From assembly GCA_030148805.1 (NCBI GenBank), contig JASBSS010000001.1:62001-126000 (forward strand): a stretch of DNA of 64,000 bases. The letters run 5' to 3'. How positions within the stretch are numbered: the first letter of the stretch is position 1; each line of letters starts with the position of its first letter. A model generated the notes under the pieces. The model did no database searches, was not told the origin of the DNA, and saw nothing but the letters and a program-made list of their open reading frames with translations. Shown in pieces: positions 1,746 through 12,674 of the stretch. Both the position numbers and the translations under genes were made by a program. The stretch is from Thiogranum sp. Its GTDB lineage: Bacteria > Pseudomonadota > Gammaproteobacteria > DSM-19610.

Positions 1746-2084
1746 ATGACGATACCGCACCATGCCCTCGAAGTTTACGAACCCTACGACTACCGCGGTG
1801 ACAACCCACTCAGCGTGGCCGGTGTCGCCGTCGTGGCCGGTCCGATGCGCGACAATTATTACCTGGTGCAGCTCGACCAGCCATTGCTCGTCGACGACAC
1901 CCCGGTGACCCAGTTGCTGGTACAGCCACGCTACAACGGCGACAAGATCGATCGCGCGGTCTCCAGTACCTGCACGGTGAACATCGCCCGGGTGGTCGGC
2001 GATACCGATCTGGTGAATCTGGAGCGGGTGAGTTTTGACCAGTTCATCCGCTGGGGCGTGGGCAAAATCAGCCCGCCCGCCTGA
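1746..2084 (+). CDS. Small hypothetical protein
   Basis: A protein of 112 residues with no recognised domain. ATG 1746 is chosen because AGAGGG lies nine bases upstream; an upstream in-frame ATG at 1662 sits inside the AT-rich promoter and would add an unlikely N-terminus. The sequence has no signal peptide and no Cys pairs except one CTVN. Residues 55-90 (TQLLVQPRYNGDKIDRAVSS) look like a beta-rich soluble fold. It ends two bases before the convergent SIMPL gene stop. Confidence 0.55.
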   Translation: MTIPHHALEVYEPYDYRGDNPLSVAGVAVVAGPMRDNYYLVQLDQPLLVDDTPVTQLLVQPRYNGDKIDRAVSSTCTVNIARVVGDTDLVNLERVSFDQFIRWGVGKISPPA

Positions 2085-2086
2085 GC

Positions 2087-2782
2087 TCAATCGCGCAGCA
2101 GCTGAATCCTGCCGCTGACCTGCACGCTGATTCGGCTGGTGCCCTGATCGAAGCCGGGGCTGGTGATGGCGGCCGCTCCCACCGCCCCCATGGCCTCGGC
2201 GCGCAAGCCGATGGGCTGCTGCAGCGGACCGCTGTGAACGGTGGCGTCCATAAGCCGGTAAGCCTGGGCATCCAGGGACTTGCGGATCAGCTGCGCACGC
2301 TCGCCAAAAGCCGCCAACGCCTGTTCAATCAACGCCGCCTCGACCTGACGACGTTGCTCGGCGGAAACCGAGAACTGCAACGACTGGATCTGGAGGCGTT
2401 CCTGCAACACGCCCAGCGCCCGGCTAAGTGCCTCCACGTCCGCGGATTCGAGGCGCAACTCCTGGCGCCCGCGCCAGCGCGCGATGCGGCTGTCTTCATA
2501 GACCGGGAAGGTCTGATAGCCACCGCTGTGGGCACGGATCGCGTCGTGTTGCTTGAGCTGGGCCAAGGCCCAGCCCATGGTGGCGTTGATCTGCTGGGCC
2601 AGTTGCGCCGGGTCGCGCTGTTCCACGGTGACGCTCAACACCGCCTCGGCGCGGTCGTTGGCCACCTCGCGGCTGACCTCGACCTGGAAGCTGACCTGGT
2701 CCTCGGGCGGCTTTTCCTCCGCCAGCCCCAGCGTGGAAACGGCCATCAGAACGAACCAGAGACCGATCGATCGGCTGCGCAT
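2087..2782 (-). CDS. SIMPL (DUF541) domain periplasmic protein
   Basis: A protein of 231 residues with the SIMPL/DUF541 pattern: an early segment VSREVANDRAEAVLSVTVEQ, a central helix, and a C-terminal strand RISVQVSGRIQLLRD. The start at 2782 is supported by GGGAG eight bases upstream. A signal peptide (MRSRSIGLWFVLMAVSTLGLA) predicts export. Family members are periplasmic or outer-membrane proteins linked to stress tolerance, with no defined catalytic activity. It lies immediately downstream of metZ on the same strand (14-base gap) and could be read through from it. Confidence 0.8.
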   Translation of the reverse strand: MRSRSIGLWFVLMAVSTLGLAEEKPPEDQVSFQVEVSREVANDRAEAVLSVTVEQRDPAQLAQQINATMGWALAQLKQHDAIRAHSGGYQTFPVYEDSRIARWRGRQELRLESADVEALSRALGVLQERLQIQSLQFSVSAEQRRQVEAALIEQALAAFGERAQLIRKSLDAQAYRLMDATVHSGPLQQPIGLRAEAMGAVGAAAITSPGFDQGTSRISVQVSGRIQLLRD

Positions 2783-2796
2783 GTCGTTGTCTCCCG

Positions 2797-3981
2797 CTAT
2801 GAATCCAAACCGCGCGCCAGATCGGCGCACAAATCCTCGAACGTCTCCAGACCGACCGCCACCCTGACCAGGCCGTCGGCTATCCCGGCCTCCTGGCGCT
2901 GTTGCGGGCTCAGACGCCCGTGGGTGGTGGTCGCCGGGTGGGTGATGGTGGTCTTGGTATCGCCCAGGTTGGCGGTGATCGAGCAGATCCGCGTCGCGTC
3001 GATCAGCCGCCAGGCGGCGGCCTGACCGCCTTCGACCTCGAACGAGACGATGCCACCAAAACCACTCTGCTGTCTAGCCGCCAGCGCGTGCTGCGGGTGG
3101 GAGTCGAGCCCCGGATAAAACACCCGCGTCACCCCGGGCTGCTGTTGCAGCCATTGCGCCAGGCGGCCCGCCGACTGGCAATGCGCCTGCATGCGCAGGG
3201 AAAGCGTCTCCAGCCCCTTGAGAAACACCCAGGCGTTGAACGGACTCATGCTGGGGCCGCAGGTGCGCAGAAAACCATACACGGCGTTACCGACCAGCGC
3301 CTCGCTGCCGACCACCGCGCCGCCCACGCAACGCCCCTGCCCGTCGAGGTACTTGGTGGCCGAGTGGATCACGATATCGGCGCCCAGCTCCAGCGGCCGC
3401 TGTAACGCTGGCGTGCAGAAACAGTTGTCCACCGCCAGCAGGCAATCGTGCGCGTGCGCCAACGCCGCCAGCGCGGCGATATCGGCGATTTCCGTCAGTG
3501 GATTGGACGGTGTCTCCAGAAACAGCAGTCGGGTGCGCGGCGTTATCGCCGCCTCCCAGGCCGCCAGGTCCGCCTGCGCCACAAAGGTGGTGTCGACCCC
3601 GAACTTGCGCAGATAGTTGTCGAACAACAAGGTGGTGCTGCCGAAGATGCTGCGCGAGGAGACGATGTGATCGCCGCTGGCGAGCAGGCCCGCGCAGGTG
3701 GCGTAGATCGCCGCCATGCCCGAGGCGGTGGCCACGCAGCGCTCGCCGTTCTCCAGCGCGGCCAGGCGTTGTTCGAAGGTGCGCACGGTCGGGTTGGTGA
3801 AACGCGAATAGATGTTGCCGGGCTGTTCGCCGGAAAAGCGCGCGGCCGCCGCCGCCGCGCTTTCAAAGACATAGCTGGAAGTGGGAAAGATCGGCTCGGC
3901 GTGCTCCAACTCTTCGGTGCGCCGCTGGCCGGCACGCACGGCCAGGGTATCGAAGCCCGGGGAAGATTCGGTTTCGGACAT
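2797..3981 (-). CDS. metZ: O-succinylhomoserine sulfhydrylase
   Basis: A 394-residue Cys/Met-metabolism PLP enzyme. It would condense O-succinylhomoserine with sulfide to homocysteine. Visible signatures are FETPSNPLTEIADI, the substrate and PLP site VDNCFCTPALQRPLELGADI, and the PLP lysine in HSATKYLDGQGR. The C-terminal NLGDTKTTITHPATTTH is typical of the MetZ branch rather than cystathionine gamma-synthase. ATG 3981 has GGAG ten bases upstream. The purF-metZ order is the usual one in pseudomonad-like gammaproteobacteria. A SAM-II riboswitch and an intrinsic terminator in the leader indicate feedback control by S-adenosylmethionine. Confidence 0.93.
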   Translation of the reverse strand: MSETESSPGFDTLAVRAGQRRTEELEHAEPIFPTSSYVFESAAAAAARFSGEQPGNIYSRFTNPTVRTFEQRLAALENGERCVATASGMAAIYATCAGLLASGDHIVSSRSIFGSTTLLFDNYLRKFGVDTTFVAQADLAAWEAAITPRTRLLFLETPSNPLTEIADIAALAALAHAHDCLLAVDNCFCTPALQRPLELGADIVIHSATKYLDGQGRCVGGAVVGSEALVGNAVYGFLRTCGPSMSPFNAWVFLKGLETLSLRMQAHCQSAGRLAQWLQQQPGVTRVFYPGLDSHPQHALAARQQSGFGGIVSFEVEGGQAAAWRLIDATRICSITANLGDTKTTITHPATTTHGRLSPQQRQEAGIADGLVRVAVGLETFEDLCADLARGLDS

Positions 3982-4022
3982 AGGTAGTGTGCTCCGCAAT
4001 GACTGACTGACACGCGGGCACG

Positions 4023-4056
4023 AAAAAACCCGCTCCCGACCGACAGCGAAAGCAGG
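4023..4056 (-). terminator. Intrinsic terminator in the metZ leader
   Basis: On the minus strand CCTGCTTTC pairs with GGGAGCGGG (nine pairs including G-T) around a loop of about ten bases, followed at once by six T. It lies between the SAM-II aptamer and metZ, about eight bases after the aptamer core. It could be the expression platform of the riboswitch or the terminator of purF; its position upstream of metZ fits attenuation. Confidence 0.75.
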
Positions 4057-4059
4057 TGC

Positions 4060-4118
4060 CATCGCTTTAGCCGCATTTATTAGGCGCCCGCAAGCTGAAA
4101 CTCAAATCGGCGCTCAGT
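4060..4118 (-). promoter_or_regulatory. SAM-II (SAM-alpha) riboswitch
   Basis: The minus strand shows the SAM-II layout. A five-pair P1 helix is formed by GCGCC (4113-4109) and GGCGC (4088-4084). Its 20-base loop begins GATTTGAG and contains GCTTGC. After P1 comes the conserved single-stranded tail ATAAATG, two bases, then GCTAAA. This matches the crystallised SAM-II aptamer almost position for position (GATTTA in the loop; ATAAATG-NN-GCTAAA after P1). The class binds S-adenosylmethionine and represses methionine synthesis genes. It lies directly upstream of metZ, the expected target. SAM-II is known mainly from alphaproteobacteria, so the host background is of interest. Confidence 0.9.
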
Positions 4119-4148
4119 CGACAGGCTAGGCAATATCCCTGGGCGCTG

Positions 4149-5660
4149 TCAAGCGTTGTTGTGCATCTCGATCACCTCGTCATCCAGGATACGGCGTTCT
4201 TCCTTGGCGATGTCGTTGCGTAGATTTTCAAGGTGATTGAGATAGTTGGCGGTCACCCCGCCGGTCACGTACTCGCCGGTGAAGACCGAACAGTCGAAGG
4301 CGCGAATCTCCCGGTTGCCCCGTCCGACAGCGGCGACCAGGTCCTCGAGGTCCTGGAAGACCAACCAGTCGGCGCCAATCGCCGCGGCGATCTGCTCGAC
4401 GCTGCGCCCGTGGGCGATCAATTCGTCCTTGGTGGGCATGTCGATGCCATAGACGTTGGGATAGCGCACCGGCGGCGCGGCGGAGGCGAAGAACACGCTT
4501 TTGGCACCGGCATCGCGCGCCATCTGGATGATCTGCTGCGAGGTGGTGCCGCGGACGATGGAGTCGTCCACCAGCATGACGTTCTTGTCCTTGAATTCCA
4601 GCTCGATGGCGTTGAGCTTCTGGCGCACCGATTTCTTGCGCTGCTGCTGCCCGGGCATGATGAAGGTGCGGCCGATGTAGCGGTTCTTGATGAAGCCTTC
4701 GCGGTATTTCACGCCGAGATTGTTCGCCAGTTCCAGGGCCGCCGTGCGGCTGGTGTCCGGAATCGGAATGACGACATCGATCTTGTGATCGGGGCGCTCG
4801 CGGCGAATTTTCTCCGCCAGGACCTCGCCCATGCGCAGCCGCGCCTTGTAGACCGAGATATTGTCGATAATCGAATCCGGGCGGGCCAGATAGACGTGCT
4901 CGAAAATGCACGGCGCGTAGCTGGGGTTGTCCGCGCACTGGCGCTTGGCCATGCCGCCGCTCATGCTCAACAGCACCGCCTCGCCGGGGCGCACGTCGTC
5001 GATCAGCTCGAAGCCCAGGGTATCCAGTGCCACACTCTCGGAGGCGATCATGTACTCCACCCCCTGGGCCGTTTCGCGCTTGCCATAGACCAGGGGACGC
5101 ACACCGTAGGGATCGCGGAAGGCGACAATGCCGAAACCGGTGATCATCGCCACCGCGGCATAGGCGCCGCTGCAGCGCCGGTGCACGCCGGCGACGGCGG
5201 CAAACACATCGTCCTGGTCGATCACCAGCTTGCCGCGCCGTTGCAGCTCGTGGGCGAACACGTTGAGCAGCACCTCGGAATCGGACTCGGTGTTGATGTG
5301 GCGCAGATCCTCGCGATAGAGGTTTTGTTTCAGCTCCTCGGCGTTGACCAGATTGCCGTTGTGCGCCAAAGAGATACCATAAGGCGAATTGACGTAGAAC
5401 GGCTGGGCTTCGGCCGAGCTTTCGCAACCGGCGGTGGGATAGCGCACGTGGCCGATGCCCATGGTGCCGCGCAGGCGCAACATATGGCGGGTGTGGAAAA
5501 CGTCGCGCACCAGGCCGTTGTCCTTGCGCAGACACAGCTGATCGCCCTCGCAGGTCATGATGCCGGCGGCATCCTGGCCGCGGTGCTGCAAAACCGTCAG
5601 GGCGTCGTAGATCGACTGATTAACGGCGCTGAAAGAAACGATTCCGACAATTCCACACAC
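4149..5660 (-). CDS. purF: Amidophosphoribosyltransferase
   Basis: A full-length 503-residue PurF, catalysing the first committed step of purine synthesis: PRPP plus glutamine to phosphoribosylamine. It begins MCGIVGIV, so Cys2 is the N-terminal nucleophile of the glutaminase domain; HRGQDAAGI and RYPTAG follow. The PRPP-binding loop of the phosphoribosyltransferase domain is [18 protein letters not shown] at about residues 364-381. There is no propeptide. It lies 29 bases downstream of cvpA, the standard cvpA-purF arrangement. Confidence 0.97.
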
Positions 5661-5689
5661 TGGCCCTAACCCCGAAATTCACTCATTGC

Positions 5690-6187
5690 TCAGACACCCT
5701 GGAACTGGATATTCCTGGCGATATCCTCAGGCAGAAAGCTCTTGATCCACAGAGCCAGCTCCTGAAAGTGCCCCAATAGCAGCGATTGCTGCCACCAGGG
5801 ATCCTGCGGTAGCGCGGTCAAACCCGCCAACAACACCATCACGGCGATAATCACAACCCCGCGGGCGACGCCGAACACCACCCCTAGCGCCCGGTCGGTG
5901 GCCGTCAGACCGGTCTTAGCGACCAGCTGCCCGGCCAGATAGCTGATCAGTCCGCCGACCAGCACGGTGACGATGAACAATAATCCGAAGCCGACGATGT
6001 CGCGCACCGAAGGCGTCTCGATCCATCGCCCCAGCCAGTCCCCAAGGTCGTGGAAGAACACCAGGGCGACCCACAACGCGGCCACCCAGCTGGCCAGCGA
6101 CAAGGCCTCCCGGACAAAGCCGCGCCACAGGCTCAACAGCGCCGAAACGAGAATGATCGCCAGCAGAATGTAATCGATCCAGATCAA
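5690..6187 (-). CDS. cvpA: CvpA family inner-membrane protein
   Basis: A protein of 165 residues with four predicted transmembrane segments, beginning MIWIDYILLAIILVSALLSL and containing FVREALSLASWVAALWVA, the family signature. CvpA was named for colicin V production and is associated with envelope and bile-salt tolerance; its molecular role is uncertain. It sits directly upstream of purF, as in Escherichia coli. Confidence 0.93.
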   Translation of the reverse strand: MIWIDYILLAIILVSALLSLWRGFVREALSLASWVAALWVALVFFHDLGDWLGRWIETPSVRDIVGFGLLFIVTVLVGGLISYLAGQLVAKTGLTATDRALGVVFGVARGVVIIAVMVLLAGLTALPQDPWWQQSLLLGHFQELALWIKSFLPEDIARNIQFQGV

Positions 6188-6278
6188 GCGACCGACCTGA
6201 ACCGCGGATCCAGACAGTGCCGCTCACCAGAATTCATACGCGATATTTTACGCCAAGAGCCCGGGCAACGACAGTCGC

Positions 6279-6950
6279 TCACGGATAGGAAAGCACACGA
6301 CCCTTGAGGTCAAACTGGCTGGCCAATTTCTGCTGATCCTGCTCGGCTTCGCCGCGCTCCAGATAGGGTCCGACGCGCACCCGGTAGTGGGTCTTGCCGG
6401 CGACCGTCACTTTTTCCACCTGGGTGACGAATTTCGCCTGGCGCAAGCGCTCGCGCAGTCGCAGCGCATTCTGCTCGCTGGAAAAACTGCCGACCTGAAC
6501 CACCCAGCTACCCAGCGCGCCCGCAGGCTTCGCGTCGGCGGCGTCGGTCGCCGGCGCCGGCTGCTGCGTGCCGGCCGGCGACCCGGCCGCCGTGGCCGGG
6601 GTTGCGGGCGCCGGCGCGACGACCGGCGCATCGGCTGGCGCCGGCGGCGATGCCTGTTGCGGCAGCGGCAGGGGGATGTCTGCGCTGTCCTCAGCCGGCT
6701 CCTCCGCGTCCTGGAGCCGATCCGACGGAGACGTCTGCACGACCGAATCACTCGGCGTGGCCGGGATCTCGCCGCTCTGGGGAATGTCCTCCAGCGGCTG
6801 GTTCAGCCCCTGATCCTGCGGCACCGGCAACGGCTCCATTTCCGGTACCAGATCGTGCTCCGGATTCTCCAACAGCATGGGAATGAAAATCACCGCCAGC
6901 GCCACCAGCACCACGGCGCCGACCAGGCGCTGTTTCAAAACCAAGTCCAT
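6279..6950 (-). CDS. SPOR-domain membrane protein (DedD-like)
   Basis: A protein of 223 residues with a short cytoplasmic N-terminus, one transmembrane segment (LVGAVVLVALAVIFIPMLL), a long Pro/Ala/Asp-rich periplasmic linker and a C-terminal SPOR domain (SWVVQVGSFSSEQNALRLRE to the end). SPOR domains bind denuded septal peptidoglycan, so it is probably a cell-division accessory protein like DedD. It stands between folC and cvpA, the usual dedD location. The low-complexity linker is rich in PAP and PATP runs. Confidence 0.9.
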   Translation of the reverse strand: MDLVLKQRLVGAVVLVALAVIFIPMLLENPEHDLVPEMEPLPVPQDQGLNQPLEDIPQSGEIPATPSDSVVQTSPSDRLQDAEEPAEDSADIPLPLPQQASPPAPADAPVVAPAPATPATAAGSPAGTQQPAPATDAADAKPAGALGSWVVQVGSFSSEQNALRLRERLRQAKFVTQVEKVTVAGKTHYRVRVGPYLERGEAEQDQQKLASQFDLKGRVLSYP

Positions 6951-6965
6951 TGTGTCTCCCCCGAA

Positions 6966-8234
6966 TCAGTCGAATTCCAGCTCAGACCACTGGGCAACCG
7001 TGTGAAACGACCCGCAAACCAGGATCCGGTCGCCTGCGCGCGTCGCCGCGCGCACGGCGCGCCGCGTCTGCGCCATGTCAACACCGACGGCCGCCGCCGG
7101 CTGCCCGGTGACGGCGCGGATGGTCGCCGCCAAGGCCTCCGGCGGGCTCGCTCGCGGCGCGGCCAACCCGGTGACATACCACTGCTGCACCTCCGCTTGC
7201 AAGGCGCGGACAAACGCCGCCGCGTCCTTGTCCCTGAGCATGCCAATCACCGCGTGGCAGCGACCCGGCAGCGGCAGCCCGCGCAAGGCCGCGGCCAATG
7301 CCTCGGCGGCCTGCGCATTATGAGATACATCCAGCACCTGTTCCACCTCCCCCGCGATGCGCTGGATGCGGCCCGGCAGATGCACCGCGCGCAGTCCGCG
7401 CTCCAGCGCCGCGCGCTCCAGCGGCAGCCCGATCGCCGCCAGCAGGCTGAGCACGCCCGCGGCATTGGCCAATTGGTGAGCGCCGGCGAGCGCCGGCAGC
7501 GGCAGCCCGGCCAACGCCGGTCCGTTGCCACGCCAGGTCCAGCTCGAAGCTTCGACCGAGTAGGAGAAATCGCGCCCGGCCAACAACAGCTTGGCACCGT
7601 GTCGGGCGGCGGCCTGTACGAGGCCTGCCGGCGGATCGGGTTCGGCACAGATCGCCGGACGCCCGCGGCGCATGATACCGGCCTTTTCCCGCGCGATGCT
7701 GTCACGGTCGGTGCCCAGCCATTCGGTGTGGTCGAGACCGATGCTGGTGATCAGGGCGGCGTCGGCGTCGACGACGTTGACCGCGTCGAGCCGTCCGCCG
7801 AGCCCGACCTCCAACAACGCCACGTCGAGCGGGCGGGCGCCCATGATATCCAACGCCGCCAGCGTACCGAACTCGAAATACGTCAGGGAGGTCTCCGCGC
7901 GCGCCGCGTCGACGCGGGCGAAGGCCGCGCACAGCGAGGCGTCGTCGATCATCTCGCCGCCGAGGCGGATTCTTTCGTTGTAACGCAACAAGTGGGGCGA
8001 ACTGTAGGCGCCCACACGATAACCGGCGCCGAGCAATAGGGCTTCCAGCAGGGCCAGCGAAGAGCCTTTGCCGTTGGTCCCGGCGACACTGATCACCACC
8101 GGAGCCGGGCGCAGACAGCCCAGTCGTGCCGCTACCCGGGCCACGCGCTCGAGACCGAGATCGATCGTCCGGGGATGGAGTGCTTCCTGCCAGTCGAGCC
8201 AGTCCTGCAGGCGAGTGAAACGTGCCGCGCTCAT
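6966..8234 (-). CDS. folC: Bifunctional folylpolyglutamate / dihydrofolate synthase
   Basis: A 422-residue Mur-ligase-fold enzyme that adds glutamate to dihydropteroate and to folates. The ATP-binding P-loop is VAGTNGKGSSLALLEALL; further family motifs are SSPHLLRYNERIRL, DVALLEVGLGGRLDA and DVSHNAQA. ATG 8234 is chosen: it has GGCGGA about ten bases upstream and gives a typical N-terminus, while a TTG six codons earlier (8252) is less likely. It is followed after 15 bases by the SPOR gene and preceded by accD, the conserved order. Confidence 0.95.
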   Translation of the reverse strand: MSAARFTRLQDWLDWQEALHPRTIDLGLERVARVAARLGCLRPAPVVISVAGTNGKGSSLALLEALLLGAGYRVGAYSSPHLLRYNERIRLGGEMIDDASLCAAFARVDAARAETSLTYFEFGTLAALDIMGARPLDVALLEVGLGGRLDAVNVVDADAALITSIGLDHTEWLGTDRDSIAREKAGIMRRGRPAICAEPDPPAGLVQAAARHGAKLLLAGRDFSYSVEASSWTWRGNGPALAGLPLPALAGAHQLANAAGVLSLLAAIGLPLERAALERGLRAVHLPGRIQRIAGEVEQVLDVSHNAQAAEALAAALRGLPLPGRCHAVIGMLRDKDAAAFVRALQAEVQQWYVTGLAAPRASPPEALAATIRAVTGQPAAAVGVDMAQTRRAVRAATRAGDRILVCGSFHTVAQWSELEFD

Positions 8235-8265
8235 TCGCGCCGATTCCGCCAACCCGGCCCCGCTG

Positions 8266-9129
8266 TCAGGCCGGCGCGGTAGGCTGCGTCAACATCGAAA
8301 GCAGCGAGGCGATGCGCGCGCGCATCTCGCGCCGGTCGACGATCTGGTCGATGGCGCCGTGTTGGAGCAGAAATTCGCTGCGCTGGAAGCCCTCGGGCAG
8401 GGTTTCACGCACGGTCTGTTCGATCACCCGCGGTCCGGCAAAACCGATCAGCGCCTTTGGCTCGGCCAGATTGATGTCGCCGAGCATGGCCAGACTGGCC
8501 GAGACCCCGCCCATGGTGGGGTCTGTGAGCACCGAGATAAAAGGCAGTCCCTCAGCCGACAACCGGGTCAGCGCGGCGCTGGTCTTGGACATCTGCATCA
8601 GCGAGTACAGGGCTTCCTGCATGCGCGCGCCGCCACTGGCGGAGAAGCACACCAAGGGCACCTGCCGCTCCAGACTGGCGTTGACGGCGCGCACAAAGCG
8701 CTCGCCGACCACCGAACCCATGGATCCGCCCATGTAGCGGAACTCGAACGCCGCGGCCACCAGCGCCATGCCCTCGAGTTCGCCGCGCATCACGATCAGG
8801 GCGTCGCTTTCGCCGCAGGCCTTCTGGGCCTGCTTGATCCGCTCGCTGTACTTCCTGCTGTCGCGGAACTTGAGCGGATCGGCCGGTTGCAACTCGGCGC
8901 CGATCTCCTCGCGTGGCTGCGGATCGAGAAACAAATCGAGCCGGCGCCGCGCACCGATGCGCATATGGTGTTCGCATTTCGGACACACATCCAGATTGCG
9001 CTCCAGCTCGGTCCGGTACAGTACCGCGTCGCACGCCGGACACTTGGTCCAAAGTCCTTCAGGCACCGTTCGCTTGTCCTTACTCTCGGTTCTGATGCGC
9101 GAAGGCATCAGCTTTTCAAACCAACTCAT
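8266..9129 (-). CDS. accD: Acetyl-CoA carboxylase carboxyltransferase subunit beta
   Basis: A 287-residue AccD, half of the carboxyltransferase that transfers CO2 from biotin to acetyl-CoA in fatty-acid synthesis. The N-terminal zinc ribbon is visible as [20 protein letters not shown] followed by PKCEHH. The crotonase-like core contains [19 protein letters not shown] and [16 protein letters not shown]. Full length, with the start [12 protein letters not shown] as in other gammaproteobacteria. It is flanked by trpA and folC. Confidence 0.97.
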
Positions 9130-9144
9130 GACAATCCTACCTGT

Positions 9145-9968
9145 TCAATTGGCCGCCGCCTGCGCGCCGTCGGCATCCATCGCCGCGCGCATCTGCGCGA
9201 TCACCTCGGGGGCTTCGGCGACGATGCGCTGGGGCTGGTCGGCGAGCGCCGCAATGCGCTTGACCAGCGCGCTGCCGACGATCACCGCATCGGCGAAAGC
9301 GGCGATCCGGGCGGCGGTCTGCGCGTCGCGAATGCCGAAACCCACCCCCACAGGCAGGCCGGTATGGGCGCGTATCCGGCTGACCTGATCGCGCACCGCG
9401 CCGACATCCAGCCGGTTGGCGCCCGTGACCCCCTTGAAGGAGACGTAATAAAGGAAACCACCGCCGCTGGCGGACATCCGTTCGATGCGCCCCGCATCGC
9501 TGGTGGGCGCGGCCAGAAAGATGGTGTCGATTTCGCGGCTTTTGAGCGCGGCGACCAGATCGGCGCCCTCTTCCGGCGGCAGGTCGACGGTCAGGACCCC
9601 ATCCACGCCGGCGGCCTGGGCGGCGCCGGCGAAGTCGTCATAGCCCATGACCTCGATCGGATTGAGATATCCCATCAGCACCACCGGGGTGTGGGCATTG
9701 CCGCGGCGGAACTCGCGCACCATCTCGAGCACGTCGGCCAGCCCCGTGTGGTGGCGCAGCGCCCGTTCACAGGCGGCCTGAATAGTCGGACCGTCGGCCA
9801 TGGGATCGGAAAACGGCACCCCCAGTTCGAGCACATCGGCGCCGGCTTCGACCAAAGCGTGCAACAGCGCCACGGTGATCTCCGGCTGCGGGTCGCCGGC
9901 GGTCACATAGGGAATCAGGCCCGTACGCCGACGCTGGCGCAGGGCATCGAAACAGGCAGCGAGACGAC

Positions 9969-9972
<4 letters not shown>
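9145..9972 (-). CDS. trpA: Tryptophan synthase alpha chain
   Basis: A 275-residue TIM-barrel enzyme that cleaves indole-3-glycerol phosphate to indole and glyceraldehyde 3-phosphate. The catalytic Glu is in [20 protein letters not shown], and the second catalytic Asp lies in [12 protein letters not shown]. The phosphate-binding region [15 protein letters not shown] and [12 protein letters not shown] is intact. ATG 9972 overlaps the trpB stop by four bases (ATGA), so translation is coupled to trpB, fitting the alpha2-beta2 complex. Confidence 0.97.
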
Positions 9973-11172
<1,200 letters not shown>

Positions 11173-11201
<29 letters not shown>

Positions 11202-11811
11202 GTTTCACACCTCGCATGAATGCTTGTATCTTTTCGGCAGACTTTATGCCCTTGGCCGCCTCGACGCCACTGCTGACGTCGACGGCGTAAGGCCTGACCT
11301 GTTCCACCGCCGCCTGCACGTTGTCTATGGACAACCCGCCGGCCAGGATCAGCGGCGCGCCGCAGGCCGTGGGCAACAGACTCCAGTCGAAGCCCAAGCC
11401 CCCGCCACCGCGGGTAGCGGGCTGCCAGGCGTCGAACAAAAACCCCGCCGCATCGGGGTAATTGGCCAGCTGGGCACGCGCGTCCACACCGGGGCGCATG
11501 GCGATCGCTTTCAGATACGGCCGGCCAAAGCCCTGACAGGCCTCGGCGTTCTCATCGCCATGAAATTGCAGCCCGCTGAGCGGCACCTGGTCCAGTACCG
11601 CCGTGATCTGGGCGCGCTCGGCATCGACGAACAAGCCGACCGCGCTGACAAACGGCGGCAAGGCATGGCAGATTTCCCGCGCCCGTTGCACTGACACATA
11701 ACGGGGGCTGGGCGGGTAGAACACCAGGCCGATGGCGTCGGCGCCGGCCCGGGCCGCCGCCAGTGCATCCTCGATACGGGTTATCCCGCAGATTTTCACC
11801 CGGGTTCGCAT
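11173..11811 (-). CDS. trpF: Phosphoribosylanthranilate isomerase
   Basis: A 212-residue TIM-barrel isomerase of the tryptophan pathway. The catalytic Cys is in [12 protein letters not shown] near the N-terminus and the catalytic Asp in [15 protein letters not shown]. The phosphate-binding [11 protein letters not shown] and [11 protein letters not shown] are present. ATG 11811 is the natural start. The remaining trp genes (trpE, D, C) are not in this window. Confidence 0.96.
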
Positions 11812-11894
11812 AGCGCCCTGACCGCGCGACCGCCAAAACGCGTATCCTAGCAGAAATCGGCCCCGGTTCGGGAATCGACCGCCCCGGCCGCGGT

Positions 11895-12674
11895 TCAGGC
11901 GAATACCGGCAACACACCTTGGCTGGCGATGCCGAATTGCGTTGGATACTTGACGCCGACCAGATAAAGCCCCGCGGCCGGGGCGGTAACCCCGCCGCGA
12001 GTGCGATCGCGGTGCGCCAGTACCTGCGCGACCCACTGCGCGGGGCGCTCGCCGCAACCGACACTGATGAGCACACCGGCGATGTTGCGCACCATGTGAT
12101 GCAAAAAGGTGTTCGCCTCGACATCGAGGTAGATCAGATCGCCGTGGCGCGCGACCTGCAATCGGTGGATGGTGCGGATGGGACTTTTCGCCTGACAGGC
12201 CACGGCGCGAAACGAACTGAAATCGTGTTCGCCCAACAGGTGGGTGGCCGCCTGCTGCATGCGCTCGGCCGCCAACGGCCGGCGTTCCCAGGTGGCGCGC
12301 GTGCGCATCAGCGCACTGGGCACCTCGCGGTTGAGAATCACATAACGATAGCTGCGCGCCTGGGCGGAGAACCTGGCGTGAAACGCCGGATCGACCCGCT
12401 GCACGTGCAGGATGCGAATGTCGCGCGGCAGATTCGCGTTGCCGCCGAGCAGCCAGGCGCGTTCGGCGCGCACCGCGTCGGTGTCGAAATGAACGATCTG
12501 CCAGGTGGCGTGCACCCCGGCGTCGGTGCGTCCCGCGCAGCCCACGCTTACGGCCTGGTCGGCGACCCGCGACAACGCCCGCTCCACGCAGGCCTGGACG
12601 GACGGCGCGTTGTCCTGACGCTGCCAGCCGCGATAGGCCGCGCCGTCGTATTCAATCGCACAGGCGATGCGCAT
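11895..12674 (-). CDS. truA: tRNA pseudouridine(38-40) synthase
   Basis: A 259-residue TruA that modifies positions 38-40 of the anticodon arm. The catalytic Asp is in the motif GCAGRTDAGVHATWQ. N-terminus MRIACAIEYDGAAYRGWQRQ and the segment FLHHMVRNIAGVLI are typical. In pseudomonads truA adjoins fimV; here about 10 kb of respiratory genes separates them. Confidence 0.96.
   Translation of the reverse strand: MRIACAIEYDGAAYRGWQRQDNAPSVQACVERALSRVADQAVSVGCAGRTDAGVHATWQIVHFDTDAVRAERAWLLGGNANLPRDIRILHVQRVDPAFHARFSAQARSYRYVILNREVPSALMRTRATWERRPLAAERMQQAATHLLGEHDFSSFRAVACQAKSPIRTIHRLQVARHGDLIYLDVEANTFLHHMVRNIAGVLISVGCGERPAQWVAQVLAHRDRTRGGVTAPAAGLYLVGVKYPTQFGIASQGVLPVFA

Follow-up and report, generated by a model that had tools for sequence, protein, structure and literature searches.

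In the window, which is the whole stretch of 64,000 nucleotides that was analysed, a leader was located on the minus strand between purF (end at 4149) and metZ (ATG at 3981). The metZ product was matched by the profiles NF006003 (700.7 bits, cut-off 522) and TIGR01325 (587 bits, cut-off 510). From 2797 to 12674, one strand carries metZ, purF, likely cvpA, a SPOR protein gene, folC, accD, trpA, trpB, trpF and truA; with names assigned from sequence, this metZ-purF-...-truA neighbourhood resembles an arrangement that is common among gammaproteobacteria. The features are listed below, with their basis in brackets.

4149-5660, minus strand: purF, upstream neighbour (open reading frame and sequence, from which it was named)
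4147-4152, minus strand: TTGACA, -35 element of the metZ promoter, which overlaps the stop codon of purF (sequence)
4123-4128, minus strand: -10 element TAGCCT, three of six matches, 18-base spacer from the -35 element (sequence)
About 4116-4059, minus strand: SAM-II aptamer (sequence)
4109-4113, minus strand: P1 5' strand, GCGCC (sequence; P1 covariation in 209 aptamers)
4104-4108, minus strand: GAUUU, loop L1 of the predicted SAM pocket (in 208 of 209 distinct aptamers)
4090-4098, minus strand: UCAGCUUGC, 5' strand of pseudoknot P2 (U4098, C4097) and conserved UUGC (4093-4090)
4084-4088, minus strand: P1 3' strand, GGCGC (sequence)
4062-4071, minus strand: GCUAAAGCGA, predicted pocket word GCUAAA (4071-4066) and P2 3' strand (G4063, A4062)
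4071-4063, minus strand: GCUAAAGCG, 5' strand of the predicted antiterminator, within GCUAAAGCGA
4046-4054, minus strand: UGCUUUCGC, 3' strand of the predicted antiterminator, inside the 5' arm of the terminator
4023-4057, minus strand: intrinsic terminator, stem-loop 4057-4028 and U-run 4028-4023 (fold and consensus scan)
3992-3995, minus strand: GGAG, likely metZ ribosome-binding site, 10 bases before the ATG (sequence)
2797-3981, minus strand: metZ, O-succinylhomoserine sulfhydrylase, 394 aa, predicted controlled gene (profile matches)

The covariance-model search proposed in the initial annotation was carried out and placed RF00521 (SAM-II) first among the matches of the region, with 22.8 bits (E 0.004, 351-base stretch), below the gathering score of 36 bits. 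At that threshold, which is a rule of the database and not a feature of the RNA, Rfam reported nothing within the window. Genome-wide, a score of 22.8 bits is not significant alone (E 0.0106; an apparent chance match scores 23.2). The weak region matches to M23, mir-1490, HOTAIRM1_3 and BcKCsr2 were taken as chance. A second SAM-II copy was detected in the same genome, before metK (RF00521, 29.5 bits); the metZ and metK copies share 92% mean column identity. With no match in the window at the Rfam threshold, a covariance model with five pairs (R1) was built instead from these two copies of one genome. It scored them at 88.9 and 88.0 bits in the home genome, the next match being at 14.2 bits. 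The third RF00521 match of the genome (C35; L002/L010), at 23.2 bits, was without the core arrangement and was unreported by R1.

The metK copy, the conservation across the home order (18/20 genomes) and the covariation place the window element beyond chance, and it was confirmed as a genuine SAM-II-type leader. The initial annotation, which named no strand, was supported in part: a terminator-bearing leader of this type does precede metZ in this gammaproteobacterium, as it had described. The element is real even though its Rfam score is poor, the comparative evidence being decisive; a poor covariance score, which had been offered as grounds for refutation, would have been a misleading guide.

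To describe the aptamer, 209 distinct sequences were parsed from fetched loci and used for all word and pair counts. GAUUU, UUGC and GCUAAA were found together in 207 of them and are all present in the window copy, where GAGUUUCAGC is located between GAUUU and UUGC; the role of these words in binding SAM is taken from the published SAM-II structure and would apply here by analogy. The outer pair of P1 was canonical in 155/209 aptamers versus 88.4 in shuffled sets, and the inner pairs showed compensatory changes, some of them contributed by the second copies of tandem pairs. In the window copy the sixth (outermost) pair, 4114/4083, is A-C, so the outermost pair is absent. For P2, pair X1-Y1, which adjoins the constant C-G, was canonical in 161/209 versus 135.1 shuffled (sd 4.4), the next position was marginal (p 0.04) and the third position showed no covariation across the 209 aptamers; two off-register controls were also somewhat raised versus shuffles, and the shuffle tests used for pairs, antiterminator and promoters ignore relatedness. 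The P2 of the window has two clear outer pairs, C4097-G4063 and U4098-A4062, followed by U-U. Data thus gave moderate support to an H-type pseudoknot P2 that is real but short in the gamma- and betaproteobacterial form. When the full window leader was folded alone by energy, another structure was preferred and its stability was no better than that of shuffles, a result expected for a pseudoknot, yet one that gives no support either.

The promoter of the window appears to be sigma70-like, with a weak -10 hexamer, and was not reported by a strict promoter scan. TTGAC is kept at the -35 place in metZ leaders across the genus, and the -10 place in leaders of relatives is occupied by TAACCT, TACTCT, TACCCT, TAAGCT or TAATCT. 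Promoter-like pairs were found 5' of the aptamer in 148/215 leaders versus 4.7 in shuffles, mostly ending 7-8 bases before P1; a promoter just 5' of the aptamer was already noted for SAM-II (PMC1273637). Transcription of the metZ leader is predicted to start a few bases 5' of P1.

The terminator of the window folds at -16.1 kcal/mol (z -3.2; 1/200 shuffles as good), and a consensus terminator scan found this one terminator versus 0.2 expected. A terminator-like hairpin with a U-run was present in 165 of 221 leaders. In these 165, GCUAAAGCG was matched to its best nine-base partner downstream; the pairing averaged 7.45/9 versus 5.79 shuffled and reached at least 7.5/9 in 107 leaders versus 7.4 expected, values that are somewhat optimistic, as the nine-base register was picked after inspection of the genus alignment. 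The complementary site overlaps the 5' arm of the terminator in 146/165. In the window, eight of nine positions of GCUAAAGCG and UGCUUUCGC pair, one of them as G-U, with one mismatch (7.5/9, counting G-U as half). An earlier antiterminator test, based on free duplex energies, gave a weaker single-locus signal (0.08 versus shuffles for the window copy). In another metZ leader of the genus (L268) the U-run is missing and the hairpin directly adjoins AGGAGAGGG, the ribosome-binding site, which suggests a switch from transcriptional to translational control.

GCUAAAGCG is shared by aptamer and antiterminator, UGCUUUCGC by antiterminator and terminator, and each can serve only one of its two structures at a time; these exclusive pairings give the arrangement of an OFF switch. 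The element is very probably a SAM-II riboswitch that shuts off metZ at high levels of S-adenosylmethionine (SAM), with SAM binding and the direction of control as its predicted parts. Transcription would begin just before P1 and the nascent RNA would form the H-type pseudoknot, with SAM presumably bound between the GAUUU loop and the UUGC/GCUAAA helix, as in the known class. In the bound state, GCUAAAGCG would be locked in the aptamer, the terminator 4057-4023 would form and termination at high SAM would yield a short transcript, about 90-95 bases long. In the absence of SAM, GCUAAAGCG (4071-4063) and UGCUUUCGC (4054-4046) would pair, the 5' arm of the terminator would be lost and metZ would be transcribed.

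The genes downstream of the leaders are metZ and related sulfhydrylases (the largest cluster), metX, metK, metF, metN, metH, metA and hom, with single cases of cysB, cysH and a sulfonate-binding protein; within the home genome they are metZ in the window and metK, both of methionine or SAM synthesis. MetJ was absent from the home genome and present in only 4/369 genomes of the class. In the same genome a SAH riboswitch (RF01057, 59.5 bits; L009 1728-1808, minus strand) sits between metK (1870-3036) and likely ahcY (290-1708), so that one gene cluster contains both a SAM-II leader and a SAH riboswitch. Another view takes the leader as a riboswitch of the same fold with another ligand or with lost SAM specificity (e.g. 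SAH), or as a SAM-V type aptamer. The class was recognised by sequence, which makes ligand specificity a prediction, and the short P2 resembles SAM-V (PMC6061858); nevertheless, all pocket words are retained in the window copy, the methionine and SAM synthesis targets fit SAM feedback, no SAM-V or SAM/SAH family appeared among the region matches up to E 10, and the genome has its separate SAH riboswitch before ahcY. A different ligand or a SAM-V type aptamer is very unlikely.

Tandem SAM-II copies were observed in L092, L075, L134, L112, L108, L052, L057, L137 and L272. The first copy of a pair is followed by a terminator; the second is without one and lies near a start codon. Tandem copies show compensatory P2 changes (CAAC/GUUG, UGAC/GUCA), and some of them stand before a MoxR-like ATPase or before proteins that match no family.

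To assess the distribution of the element, genomes of the GTDB class, which as used here takes in the former betaproteobacteria, were searched with R1. The element was detected in 188/369 genomes at E 0.01 or better and, from the same listing, in 165/369 at 1e-4 or better. RF00521 at its own cut-off recovered 30 of the same 369, and the RF00521 class matches listed run continuously from 26 to 48 bits; in Gammaproteobacteria the cut-off conceals most of the SAM-II class, 30 genomes passing it while about 165-188 carry the element. In the home order 18/20 genomes were positive, as were 11/11 of those with completeness of 90% or more and contamination no higher than 5%; one large family belonging to the class gave 48/60. 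The phylum sample gave 39/398 at 1e-4, some in other classes. Among the matches listed in a pattern scan were Thiogranum, Chromatiales, Halomonas, Legionellales, SAR86, Nitrosospira, Thauera, Zoogloea and Herminiimonas, and also alphaproteobacteria, e.g. Bosea and Microvirga. This form of SAM-II is common in gamma- and betaproteobacteria, where it has gone unrecognised or been recorded under different names. The window element belongs to a known class and is ordinary in kind; the notable point is how widely its form occurs while being overlooked.

SAM-II has long been reported chiefly from Alphaproteobacteria (PMC1273637, PMC4239095), with SAM_alpha in Rhizobiales and Rhodobacterales only according to Leyn et al. 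2014 (PMC4239095). Copies from Coxiella, Bordetella and Bacteroides were already listed by Corbino et al. 2005 (PMC1273637), and Barrick and Breaker 2007 suggested transfer for sporadic gammaproteobacterial copies (PMC2258182). The statement of the initial annotation that SAM-II is mostly alphaproteobacterial is true to the literature and to the Rfam cut-off, but not to the genomes. Of the two alternatives it offered, wider distribution was upheld by the counts in the class (188/369) and the order (18/20). Recent transfer of the riboswitch together with metZ from an alphaproteobacterium, for which the reported range and the proposal of Barrick and Breaker speak, was rejected as extremely unlikely because of the same counts and because the order purF-promoter-aptamer-terminator-metZ is kept throughout the genus. 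The distribution is wide and probably reflects vertical descent.

With SAM-II (RF00521, SAM_alpha; Corbino et al. 2005) the element shares P1, the pseudoknot arrangement, the pocket words, a promoter just 5', a terminator 3' and methionine genes. On the other hand, the P2 of the window is short (about two outer pairs) while that of the Rfam consensus is GC-rich, and the present form is sub-cut-off and gamma- and betaproteobacterial; RF00521 represents P2 by sequence alone, with a consensus rich in GC, which plausibly explains the low Rfam scores. The metZ SAM-II riboswitch of Sinorhizobium meliloti (RZ RNA), which gives an RNA of about 100 nt that is commoner at high SAM (PMC9373788), was compared with the window element on these features: it is similar in class, gene, predicted terminator mechanism and RNA length, and differs in belonging to another bacterial class.

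RF02424 (Bp2_287) is the Burkholderia sRNA Bp2_Cand287_SIPHT, reported near purF, metZ and metX, with RT-PCR of the locus (PMC3521395). It covers the same stretch of DNA and the same gene context as the window element, but on the opposite strand and labelled as sRNA. Taken at face value, this RT-PCR and the weak match in the window (plus strand only, 4045-4114, 14.1 bits versus a cut-off of 70) favour a constitutive attenuator or a trans-acting small RNA instead of a ligand switch. Read on that strand, however, the terminator comes first and the aptamer last, the RF02424 consensus reversed being aptamer then terminator; promoters, terminators and downstream genes all agree with the metZ strand, and the six RF02424 matches in 114 genomes of the class (L280-L285) are 6/6 antisense to SAM-II elements. 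A non-ligand role is hardly credible beside the SAM-II riboswitch, and RF02424 is probably the wrong strand of the SAM-II element. In the family of G107, a single RF02424 match (G782), at which there is no SAM-II element, looks spurious.

Leyn et al. 2014, who limited SAM-II to two alphaproteobacterial orders, proposed a new betaproteobacterial metXZ RNA element with pseudoknot and terminator, described without a ligand and unlinked to SAM-II, mostly before metX (metXW), with metZ as the following gene in Methylophilales, Nitrosospira and Thiobacillus (PMC4239095). Among the matches listed here, the SAM-II element lies ahead of metX in Zoogloea, Thauera, Rhodocyclaceae and Herminiimonas (L143, L150, L190, L180) and ahead of metZ in Nitrosospira, Novimethylophilus and Sideroxydans (L144, L151, L219), the genes being called by similarity of predicted proteins to scanned representatives. 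The metXZ element is likely a form of SAM-II, as genes, taxa, pseudoknot and terminator agree; its ligand would then be predicted and directly testable, and the main SAM feedback of many proteobacteria lacking MetJ would be explained. No paper linking SAM-II, the metXZ element and RF02424 was found in a literature search of incomplete coverage. With good confidence, SAM-II is regarded as one of the main SAM sensors of gamma- and betaproteobacteria, carried by about half of the sampled class and in tandem pairs in some lineages, with RF00521, the metXZ element and RF02424 (on the wrong strand) as one family.
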